Positions 42,704-46,625 of a DNA stretch of 64,000 bases are shown in pieces. The notes below the pieces were generated by a model that was given only the letters and a program-made list of their open reading frames with translations, was not told where the DNA came from and did not search any database. The stretch spans positions 2,666,001 through 2,730,000 of the forward strand of contig NC_016620.1 in NCBI RefSeq assembly GCF_000210915.2, read 5' to 3'. The stretch comes from Halobacteriovorax marinus SJ. GTDB taxonomy: Bacteria > Bdellovibrionota > Bacteriovoracia > Bacteriovoracales > Bacteriovoracaceae. The position numbers and the translations under genes were made by a program. The stretch's first letter is position 1. Every line of letters starts with the position of its first letter.

Positions 42704-44047
42704 TTAATGTTCGTTTTCTATATTAAAGGCCGGATTTTCAAAACTCGTATATTGACCAACCCAAGAGAGTTTAGCCGTTCCCGTTTCACCGGCTCTATTC
42801 TTACCGACGATAACCTCGGCAATACCAGGCTCTTTAGTATCTTGGTTATAATACTCGTCACGGTAAACGAACATAATGATATCCGCATCCTGCTCAATGG
42901 CACCAGACTCTCTAAGGTCACTCGTCATTGGTCTCTTATTTGGTCTCGATTCAACACCACGGTTAAGCTGAGAGAGAGCAATAACAGGACAACCCAATTC
43001 CTTTGCCATTGACTTAAGACCCCTAGACATCTCTGAAATCTGCTGTTCTCTAGATGGGTTCTTAGTGTGAGAGTTCATTAACTGAAGGTAATCAATAATT
43101 ATAAGTCCAAGACCTTGCTCAGTTTTAATTTTACGACACTGGGATTGAATATCTAAAATTGTTGAGTCACCTGAATCATTTATAAAAATTGGAAATTGAG
43201 ATAACTCTTGAACAGCTTTACCTATACTTCTTAGGTCAGTGTCCAAGAAATTTTTCTGTCTAATTCTCTTAGAGTCTACCTTCGCCTTTTGTGAGAGAAG
43301 TCTCATTGAAAGTTCGTTAGATAACATCTCCAGAGAGAAGATTGCAACAGGTAGCCCTGAAGTAGCACAAGCGTTTTGAGCAATATTTAGGGCCAAAGCC
43401 GTTTTCCCCATCGCAGGACGGGCAGCTAAGATAATTAATTGCCCCGGCTGCATTCCAAGAAGCATTTCATCCAATTTAGGATAGCCAGTTGGAAGTCCAT
43501 TAATTTCACCTGGAACTCTTGAAGTGTCCTCTAGTTCTTTAAGATTGAGCTTCAAGCAAGAATTAAGCTTTTGCATTTTTCCAGACTTGGCTTCATTAGT
43601 AAGCTTGAAGAAAGTTGACTCTACTTCTTGAATGAAGTCCTCAGACTTACCACCGAAGTCGTAACCCATTGAGGCCACACGTTCAGCACTTCTTATAACT
43701 TCGCGCATACCAGACTTATCTTTAACGACTTTAGCGTAGTGATAAATATTGGCCGCCGAAGCTTGGTCTTCGACAATTTCCATAACAGAAGATTGTCCAC
43801 CAACAGCTTCTAATTTTCCAATCTCAGTAAGTTTTGAACATACTGTTACAAAGTCAATTGGAAGACTTGCACTATTTAAATCTGCGATGGCTTCGTAAAT
43901 GACTCCGTATTGAGGGTGATAAAAGTCCTCACCTTTTAATTTTAAATCACTCATCTCATCGAAAGAGTTCCCATCAATAATTAAACAACCTAGTAGAGAT
44001 TTCTCCGCCAATAAGTCATGGGGTAATTGCTTAATATTATTTTCCAT
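42704..44047 (-). CDS. dnaB: DnaB replicative helicase
   Basis: The hexameric 5'-3' helicase at the replication fork, 447 residues. It has an N-terminal helical domain (LPHDLLAEKSLLGCLIID), and the RecA-like domain with Walker A ARPAMGKTALAL, IIIDYLQLM as Walker B region, and the C-terminal arginine-finger region AKLSWVGQYTSFENP. There is no intein. GGAGG precedes the ATG. In the conserved rpsF-rpsR-rplI-dnaB neighbourhood. Confidence 0.96.
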   Translation of the reverse strand: MENNIKQLPHDLLAEKSLLGCLIIDGNSFDEMSDLKLKGEDFYHPQYGVIYEAIADLNSASLPIDFVTVCSKLTEIGKLEAVGGQSSVMEIVEDQASAANIYHYAKVVKDKSGMREVIRSAERVASMGYDFGGKSEDFIQEVESTFFKLTNEAKSGKMQKLNSCLKLNLKELEDTSRVPGEINGLPTGYPKLDEMLLGMQPGQLIILAARPAMGKTALALNIAQNACATSGLPVAIFSLEMLSNELSMRLLSQKAKVDSKRIRQKNFLDTDLRSIGKAVQELSQFPIFINDSGDSTILDIQSQCRKIKTEQGLGLIIIDYLQLMNSHTKNPSREQQISEMSRGLKSMAKELGCPVIALSQLNRGVESRPNKRPMTSDLRESGAIEQDADIIMFVYRDEYYNQDTKEPGIAEVIVGKNRAGETGTAKLSWVGQYTSFENPAFNIENEH

Positions 44048-44145: not shown

Positions 44146-44769
44146 TTAAGATCTTAAGATTTTGTTGGCTTCTTCTTTAAGCTTTTCTTCTTCAGTAAGT
44201 TCTTTTACTTCAGAAGTTGCTTCTTCAGTTTCACCATTTTCTTTAGCAAGAGCGGCTGCTTCAGCTGCTGCAGCTTTCTTTCTGTCTGCATCTTCTTGCT
44301 TCTTCTTCATCTCTTCTGCTTGAGCTGGATCAAGTGTAACGTTAACTTTAAAGTTAGCTTCTACACCTTCGAATAACTTAGCTGTTACATCAAAGTTACC
44401 AATTGCTTTAATTGGGTTAGCAACAACGATCATTCTCTTTTCAACTTCAACACCTTGAGCTTCAAGTTCCTTTGCAATTTCTAAGTTAGAAACTGTTCCG
44501 AAAAGCTTTCCAGAACCAGCTACTCTTCTTACGAACTCAAGAGTGATTCCTTCTACTTTCTTAGCACTTGCAACTGCAGTAGCTTTTTGTTCTTCCATTT
44601 TCTTTGCAAGAACTTTTTGTTGGTGGTTAAGTTGCTTAGTATTAGACTCATCAGCTAATACAGCAAATCTATTTGGTAATAAATAGTTTCTAGCATAACC
44701 TTGAGAAACATTTACGATCTCACCAACATTTCCAAGAGTCTTTACTCTTTCTGTTAAGATCACTTTCAT
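44146..44769 (-). CDS. rplI: Ribosomal protein bL9 with C-terminal extension
   Basis: The first 150 residues are a normal bL9: N-terminal MKVILTERVKTLGNVGEIVNVSQGYARNYLLP, the long connecting helix, and the C-terminal rRNA-binding lobe. The protein is 207 residues against about 150 usually; the extra 55 or so (from EEMKKKQEDADRKK) are Ala/Lys/Glu-rich, likely a helix or disordered. AAGGAG precedes the ATG. Located in the rpsF-type operon. Confidence 0.95.
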   Translation of the reverse strand: MKVILTERVKTLGNVGEIVNVSQGYARNYLLPNRFAVLADESNTKQLNHQQKVLAKKMEEQKATAVASAKKVEGITLEFVRRVAGSGKLFGTVSNLEIAKELEAQGVEVEKRMIVVANPIKAIGNFDVTAKLFEGVEANFKVNVTLDPAQAEEMKKKQEDADRKKAAAAEAAALAKENGETEEATSEVKELTEEEKLKEEANKILRS

Positions 44770-44770
44770 A

Positions 44771-45829
44771 TTATATCTCCTTCATTTTATTCTTTTTTTT
44801 TAAGAACTTTCTAAAATCAATCCAAATATCCGCTATCCCTAATATAGTTACCGCTTGATAACCCATAAATATTGATAGGATAACGACAATACTTCTAAAA
44901 AATCCAAAAATGCCGTACGTATCTAGCGCATCAGAAACAATTCCAAACCCTTGGAAGAAATAAAAGATTCCTAGAGAGTAAACAATATTCCATCCAATTG
45001 TTTCCATTAACTGACTTTCAAAAACAAAACTTCCAAGAGGAATTAATGCCATTGCTAAAATCAGTCCGTAAACAAATTGTTCAGGAACCTTAAAGCGAAC
45101 TAAGTCTTTCATCTTGTAAGGATAATCGTAGAATTGACGCCAGATAAGTGAGTTTCTCATCAGCATAAATTGCGATATCCATAAAAAGAAGAAAGTTCCA
45201 ACAAACGTCACTGCGAATGTCATTCTTAGAACTAAAATTGCTACTTCTTTTGGCTTATCAATTATAAACTTCATGGCCTCGGCTTGTTCACCGCCTTCAG
45301 CTAGAAAATTATCAAATCCCTTACTTGCCTTTAAACTATCTCCAACCTGGACGACTGTATCAGTAAACATGTCCACAGTTGTTTTTCCAGATAGCATAAC
45401 AAGTAAACCAAATAATAGAGCTAAAACTGTAAAAACTGAAAAACCATTCTTTAGAAGGGCCGATACTGGGTTTTGCTTATTCCACACAACTCTTGCAGTT
45501 AAAAAAGCTACAATTGAAGTGACCACAAAGTAGAGGCTCATCATTCTTGTTCCCTCTAAAGAAGAAACTAAGAAAGAAGCTCCAACAATAACAGCAATAG
45601 TTGCTGCGATGAGGCCAAATGTCTTTCCCTTACCATAAAGTAAAAAGGCAATACAAAGTGGAATTGGTGCAAAAACAATTAAAGGACCTGCCACAGATAA
45701 TAATAACGAGATCACTGCTAGGAAAACTAATTTCCCAATAGTCAGTTGACCAAAAACCTTCTCCTTAGACTTCTGTTCAGAACCCTGAGATGTTTTTAAA
45801 TAGTTGTTATCATCGTTGTGATTTGTCAT
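44771..45829 (-). CDS. DUF2232 (YybS-like) membrane protein
   Basis: This 352-residue polytopic protein has about eight hydrophobic segments after a charged N-terminus of 30 residues. Position between rpsR-type sequence and rplI, and topology, match the YybS/DUF2232 family, for which an ECF-transporter-like S-component role has been proposed. The C-terminus is Lys-rich. It begins 20 bases downstream of the S6-S18 gene and its stop lies one base before the rplI start codon's neighbour, so the operon is tight. No Shine-Dalgarno is obvious. Confidence 0.75.
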   Translation of the reverse strand: MTNHNDDNNYLKTSQGSEQKSKEKVFGQLTIGKLVFLAVISLLLSVAGPLIVFAPIPLCIAFLLYGKGKTFGLIAATIAVIVGASFLVSSLEGTRMMSLYFVVTSIVAFLTARVVWNKQNPVSALLKNGFSVFTVLALLFGLLVMLSGKTTVDMFTDTVVQVGDSLKASKGFDNFLAEGGEQAEAMKFIIDKPKEVAILVLRMTFAVTFVGTFFFLWISQFMLMRNSLIWRQFYDYPYKMKDLVRFKVPEQFVYGLILAMALIPLGSFVFESQLMETIGWNIVYSLGIFYFFQGFGIVSDALDTYGIFGFFRSIVVILSIFMGYQAVTILGIADIWIDFRKFLKKKNKMKEI

Positions 45830-45849: not shown

Positions 45850-46473
45850 TTATTCAGCTAAGCTATTTGTAATGTGACTTACAACACCCATGTTTCTCGC
45901 TCTCTTAATTGCTGTATCAGCAAGTCTGTGAGCTTTACGGCTAATACCTGAAACACGACCTGGATTAATTTTTCCAAACTCGTTGATTAACCATGCATAA
46001 GTTTTTGGGTCTTTCCAATCTGGTGTAATGTTGTTTGCAGCAAACCAACAAGACTTTCTTCTTGAGAATCTCTTCTTATCTTTTTCAAGATCAGAATCAG
46101 AATCATTTTCATCAAGGATTGAACCGTTGAATTTCTTAGAAAAAGGTGACTTGAATTTCTTAGCAATCTCAGTACCTTGCTCAGCAGTCTCACCAACTTT
46201 AACAATCATTTTCTTAAGAATTGATTCGTTGATTTTTAGACGTCTTTCGATTTCTAAGTTAACAGCACCGTTACCAGAGTAGATGAAGTAAAGGTAGTGA
46301 CCTGTTCTTACACCTTTTGATGTCGCTTGTGCGAAGTGCTTGTTACCCCAGTCATCAGTTAAAAATACTTCACCAGCATTTGCACCAACAACTTCAGTAA
46401 CCATTGCTTGAAGAGCAGCTCTTTGCTCCTCAGTAGTTTCCGTCTTAGCCACTATGGCCAATTCATAAATCAT
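45850..46473 (-). CDS. rpsF: Fused ribosomal proteins bS6-bS18
   Basis: One uninterrupted 207-residue frame encodes both proteins. Residues 1-100 are bS6 (MIYELAIVAKTETTEEQ, HYLYFIYSGNGAVNLEIERRLK), ending in a Lys-rich, then acidic linker (about 100-133, DENDSDSDLEKDKK). Residues 134-207 are bS18 (RRKSCWFAANN, AWLINEFGKINPGRVSGIS, AHRLADTAIKRARNMGVV). S6 and S18 pair on the 30S platform, so a covalent link is sterically plausible. No separate rpsR lies in the operon. GGGAGG stands before the ATG. I checked that no stop lies between the domains in the given sequence; a sequencing frameshift could still fake such a join. Confidence 0.9.
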   Translation of the reverse strand: MIYELAIVAKTETTEEQRAALQAMVTEVVGANAGEVFLTDDWGNKHFAQATSKGVRTGHYLYFIYSGNGAVNLEIERRLKINESILKKMIVKVGETAEQGTEIAKKFKSPFSKKFNGSILDENDSDSDLEKDKKRFSRRKSCWFAANNITPDWKDPKTYAWLINEFGKINPGRVSGISRKAHRLADTAIKRARNMGVVSHITNSLAE

Positions 46474-46625
46474 AAAAACCTCCCGGACAATTTATGGCCC
46501 CACCTAACTAATGATGGAGCGAGATTTACGCAAAAATGTTTCGAAAAGATAACAAAAAAGCGAGCAAAGGTAAATGGCCAAAGAACTTTCTTTAGCAATT
46601 ATAAGTATCTAATTTTAAAGGAATT

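Follow-up and report, generated by a model that had tools for sequence, protein, structure and literature searches.

A single-copy, family-wide fusion of ribosomal proteins S6 and S18 in Halobacteriovorax marinus SJ and other Bacteriovoracaceae

To our knowledge, bacterial ribosomal proteins are nearly always made as separate chains, and the locus considered here raises the question of whether S6 and S18 are joined into one protein in Halobacteriovorax marinus SJ and, if so, in what form that protein works. The window, i.e., the whole stretch of 64,000 nucleotides analysed (NC_016620.1, positions 2,666,001 to 2,730,000), contains a frame of 207 codons that the original prediction had taken, giving no strand, for a single S6 plus S18 gene. 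This reading is borne out, and the gene lies on the minus strand:

45850..46473, minus strand (46473→45850): fused bS6–bS18 gene, 207 aa, ATG start; the genome has no other S6 or S18 gene
46198..46467, minus strand: bS6 domain (Pfam range, aa 3-92), PF01250, with an AlphaFold model match to E. coli S6
45868..46068, minus strand: bS18 domain of the C-minus type (aa 136-202, range from TIGR00165), with C142 kept and the other CxxC…CxxH zinc ligands missing

Both domains are matched above the curated cut-offs in this one frame. With Pfam, the fused protein matches PF01250 (S6) at aa 3-92 with 66.7 bits against a cut-off of 27 and PF01084 (S18) at aa 147-196 with 52.8 bits against 21; with NCBIfam, it matches TIGR00166 (S6) at aa 1-93 (46.9, cut-off 42.9) and TIGR00165 (S18) at aa 136-202 (48.2, cut-off 38.75). 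The S18 homology of the C-terminal part is thus clear, and the protein consists of two full domains, bS6 (aa 1-93) and bS18 (aa 136-202), joined by a linker of about 42 aa. A stop or frameshift near codons 100-130 was looked for and none was found; nor was a second rpsR, next to which the C-terminal part could be a remnant, found in the complete genome (3,437,906 bp, two contigs, 100% complete), whose one S6 match and one S18 match both lie in the fused frame. Since S6 and S18 are one protein without separate copies, the 1:1 ratio and co-delivery that had been proposed for the pair are supported, and they hold unless the linker is cut.

An AlphaFold run with 47 fused sequences gives a model of the fusion with a pLDDT of 85.9 and a pTM of 0.81, the linker and part of S18 having a pLDDT of 60-66. 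The S6 part of the model matches S6 from many ribosomes with Z up to 16.6, the value obtained for E. coli S6 (5mdv chain k; rmsd 1.2 Å, 103 residues). In a sequence search, no PDB chain spanning both halves was found among the matches listed, each of which covers either the S6 or the S18 half. The counterparts in the fusion of K60 and R63, the RNA-contacting S18 residues in E. coli numbering, are K190 and R193, both invariant in the 47 fused proteins.

The fusion is a genuine feature of the family as a whole, present in single copy and of old date. The phylum sample comprises 241 genomes, and the family of the window, Bacteriovoracaceae in the GTDB sense, is represented by 129 genomes from 48 genera. 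An S18 match is found in 118 of these 129 genomes, one apiece and nearly all in frames of 203-252 aa, and the S6 matches of the family fall within those same long frames. In the other families of the phylum sample, S18 frames measure 74-162 aa among the stronger matches, which were the ones listed, and none of these listed frames is of fused length. Reading of 80 Bacteriovoracaceae loci besides the window and of 20 outgroup loci gives 72 Bacteriovoracaceae loci, the window counted, with S6 and S18 in one frame. The nearest named relative loci are from Bacteriovoracaceae and Halobacteriovorax, the matches in a scan of GTDB species contigs read as Bacteriovoracia, and the fusion is present in cultured Bacteriovorax sp. 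BSW11_IV, Bacteriovorax sp. DB6_IX and an H. marinus isolate. That errors or local breaks can occur is illustrated by one draft genome (G091) with an in-frame TAA in the linker; an artefact or remnant, arising from a sequencing error or beside a second functional rpsR elsewhere, is nevertheless refuted for the lineage of the window by the single copies of S6 and S18 in a complete genome, by the frame open in 72 loci and by the cultured isolates, and its probability is negligible.

Regarding a separate rpsR in relatives, as the original prediction had asked, clearly separate S6 and S18 genes occur in only five genomes of the family (G249, G264, G265, G266 and G193, from four genera). In these five, S18 has its own start codon shortly past the S6 stop, mostly with a Shine-Dalgarno-like sequence. 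Because they keep separate genes, the fusion is dispensable for this kind of ribosome. Some further genomes call for comment. G286 was considered as unfused and rejected, its contigs breaking inside the frame with a common end ANFKLGE, and it is read as fused. In G091 (C61; loci L069 and L253), a single draft assembly, the halves are of the fusion type, but the linker is interrupted by one in-frame TAA, and no start codon lies between this and the S18 core; the TAA may be a mistake of the assembly, a stop that is read through or a recently acquired mutation. The second S6 of G238 (L063, C102) is of another S6 type, has FHA and hydrolase-like genes as neighbours on a small contig and is probably contamination. 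Several high-completeness genomes of the phylum, namely G162 (complete, f6), G168, G194, G237 and G068, have no S18 recognisable with Pfam and a relative's S18 as query, G162 and G168 having S6 all the same; bS18 is possibly lost or extremely diverged in these genomes.

Gene order among relatives points to a path towards the fusion. Three other outgroup families have S6, S18, DUF2232 and L9 in the same cluster as the family of the window; in Bdellovibrionaceae and related families (outgroups G005, G112, G061 and others), unlike Bacteriovoracaceae, rpsR is far from rpsF. In view of the adjacent S6 and S18 genes in relatives, the fusion likely arose from adjacent genes by loss of the S6 stop and the S18 start. 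The composition of the segment between the two domains can be followed in the same way:

46069..46194, minus strand: linker, aa 94-135 (42 aa), the first part of which (as far as about aa 118) is aligned with the C-terminal tail that is ordered in E. coli S6
46084..46113, minus strand: acidic stretch DENDSDSDLE, aa 121-130, of low model confidence (pLDDT about 60)

Linker length ranges from 32 to 48 aa across the fused loci. The linker has a stop in frame 0 in 0/72 loci, whereas the two alternative frames have one in 42/72 and 72/72; this excludes a chance open frame, and the linker reading frame is under selection. The first part of the linker is the S6 tail, which is also present on unfused S6 (KNYKSPF), and the second part is an acidic N-terminal extension found on unfused S18 too, ending in DKDRRMF ahead of the S18 core. 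The linker is hence an old S6 tail plus an old acidic S18 N-terminal extension, brought together from genes that are adjacent in unfused relatives.

These observations bear on the proposal that the acidic stretch is a cleavage site, in which case one chain would be translated and cut by a protease in the acidic linker, freeing ordinary S6 and S18 with the 1:1 ratio set and the tether gone. A flexible and acidic linker would suit such processing, as would the motif YKTPFSKKYxGSVxD that members of the window clade have in common, with acidic residues next. However, the linker of the second fused clade has YKNPNH, and no motif of the acidic part is common to both fused clades (YKTPFSKKYxGS versus YKNPNH); furthermore, the window clade motif starts with the S6 tail that unfused S6 carries as well, and acidic S18 extensions exist without any fusion. 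Judged from these comparisons, the acidic linker appears better explained as an inherited tail and extension than as a purpose-made cleavage site, and processing into two proteins is unlikely. An internal translation start, by which a separate S18 would be made from a start codon inside the linker in addition to the fusion, is far less probable still. An in-frame ATG does occur in or near the linker in 33 of the 72 fused genes, but an SD-like motif precedes the candidates in only 7 of the 72, and their positions vary across the family. The linker of the window gene contains no ATG, GTG or TTG in frame, nor was an in-frame start codon found in the linker elsewhere in its genus.

The fusion goes together with a change in S18 itself. 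The CxxC…CxxH zinc ligands are present in all five unfused Bacteriovoracaceae S18 (5/5) and in none of the fused ones (0/72). For bS18, C+ and C- forms have been described, and many genomes have them as paralogues (PMC9976891). The fused S18 resembles these zinc-independent bS18(C-) forms in the missing CxxC-type ligands; unlike them, it is no paralogue beside a C+ copy, being the sole S18 of the H. marinus genome and going with the fusion. The absence of the site from the fused proteins suggests that zinc was no longer needed to stabilise S18, as a result either of the tether or of the same evolutionary episode. The correlation alone is no proof of coupling, because it is complete but may stand for only one or two events. 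The trees are divided on whether the fusion arose once or twice. Those of L9, DUF2232 and DnaB, of RpoB/RpoC and of all combined place the unfused g145/g146 beside the window clade and the second fused clade apart, with no rejection of a single fused clade by the AU test (p 0.063 and 0.055). In the S6+S18 tree, a single fused clade is preferred, the log-likelihood being 22 higher when the fused sequences are held together (p 0.84), although shared fusion-linked changes could draw the S6+S18 rows together in that tree. It is doubtful, if conceivable, that fusion and zinc-site loss are functionally coupled, the tether replacing zinc as the stabiliser of S18, and that the pair of changes arose twice independently in Bacteriovoracaceae, once in the window lineage and once in another, deep clade.

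The expression of the gene can be approached from the sequences around it:

46474..46526, minus strand: covarying 5' leader immediately upstream of the fused gene, built like the rpsF leader of E. coli
46523-46521, minus strand: leader CUC, which can pair with the GAG of the SD (H1)
46520-46513/46504-46497, minus strand: leader H2 stem, with covariation
46496-46487, minus strand: leader bulge
46486-46485, minus strand: conserved CC of the leader
46484-46479, minus strand: SD GGGAGG of the leader
44771..45829, minus strand: DUF2232 membrane protein, whose gene comes next in the likely transcription unit
44146..44769, minus strand: rplI (bL9), with an extra C-terminal extension
44108-44085, minus strand: terminator-like hairpin (GGGCCCAGAG-TTTT-CTCTGGGCCT), after rplI and before dnaB
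42704..44047, minus strand: dnaB replicative helicase, a flanking gene and marker of the conserved locus

The transcription unit is likely formed by the leader, S6–S18, DUF2232 and L9, followed by the terminator-like hairpin. The extension of the bL9 in the window comprises about 60 additional C-terminal residues, rich in Ala, Lys and Glu, past the L9 family match (aa 1-145). The leader plan, in which CUC is followed by a stem (4-11 bp), a bulge, CC and the SD, recurs across about 70 related loci, the CC being conserved in 67 of 70. The stem measures 7.8 bp on average, against 4.4 after exchanging 5' arms among sequences. In 24 aligned leaders, 98.8% of the cells are paired. Double-changed cells number 56, compared with 16.6 in shuffles, and the covariation score reaches 0.621, compared with 0.165; this signal is abolished by sliding the partner by one column. 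The main stem is also recovered by RNAalifold unaided. Because H1 is nearly invariant, covariation is neutral on whether CUC and GAG pair and so hide the SD, and H1 is compatible with the leader sequences but not established by covariation. When the whole genome is searched with a covariance model of the leader, the best match is the site at 46526-46474 (1.5e-11), the next being at 0.117. The model also matches before S6 of the unfused G193 and of G091 and, weakly, before S6 of an outgroup; no match was found before S6 of G249 (L065, g142) or of g145/g146 (G264-G266; L066, L067 and L068). A different hairpin lies ahead of S6 in g145/g146, e.g., GTGCGCACA…TGTGCGC in L068.

In E. coli, the S6:S18 heterodimer shuts off translation via the rpsF leader; repression by the two proteins together depends on both stems, H1 (which holds the SD) and H2, as well as on the CC, and S18 residues K60 and R63 are needed for leader binding (PMC4647458). 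The H. marinus leader is like the rpsF leaders of E. coli and B. subtilis (PMC4647458) in having a possible H1 stem with the SD, H2 and a conserved unpaired CC directly before rpsF, and the likeness to the E. coli leader can be followed by eye (CCUU, GCCUCC/GGAGGC, a bulge with CC, UAAGGAG). It differs in preceding the gene of a fused protein, and an Rfam 15 scan of nine loci with E up to 5 matched no leader family at the right place. Since the known ligand of this leader is the S6:S18 pair, the ligand predicted here is one chain, and we infer by analogy that the fused chain binds its own leader.

Taken together, the fused gene probably yields an uncut, single-chain tethered S6–S18 that works as an S6:S18 unit and keeps its autoregulation. 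One uncut polypeptide would be made, in which the flexible linker would tether S6 and S18, partners on the 30S platform, and the two domains would dock on each other within the chain. With such intrachain docking, the association of S6 and S18 before platform assembly would become concentration-independent and strictly 1:1. The single chain would bind both 16S rRNA and its own leader, and the leader-bound chain would hold the SD paired, thus repressing its own translation like the E. coli heterodimer.

Compared with the bS6:bS18 heterodimer encoded by rpsF and rpsR, the same two proteins are found, ordered as they are in E. coli (rpsF–priB–rpsR–rplI operon), with K60 and R63 kept; however, H. 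marinus has one polypeptide, with neither a free S6 C-terminus nor a free S18 N-terminus. The S6 C-terminus is the target of RimK in E. coli, and the S18 N-terminus is the target of RimI. With both ends gone, these modifications should be absent or different in the fusion. A RimK-family search of the H. marinus genome gave six ATP-grasp matches, a result too unspecific to bear on S6 modification. A bacterial ribosomal protein fused to another protein is also represented by NCBIfam NF011110 (signalling protein–L9), but the partner there is non-ribosomal, whereas both halves of S6–S18 are ribosomal and direct structural partners. No published description of an S6–S18 fusion was found in the open-access literature searched; the fusion is apparently undescribed in that literature, and its domain architecture may already have an entry in automatic protein databases.

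In these predatory bacteria, S6 and S18, which are normally separate in bacteria, are joined throughout a family. As a natural, family-wide fusion of direct partners, it makes testable whether pre-association of S6 and S18 limits assembly of the 30S platform, and it offers the autoregulatory RNA of S6:S18 a natural ligand in single-chain form. The ribosomal proteins of these genomes can be miscounted by annotation pipelines in which rpsF and rpsR are expected as separate genes. For the family itself, the fusion connects a change in ribosome architecture with the loss of a zinc site.
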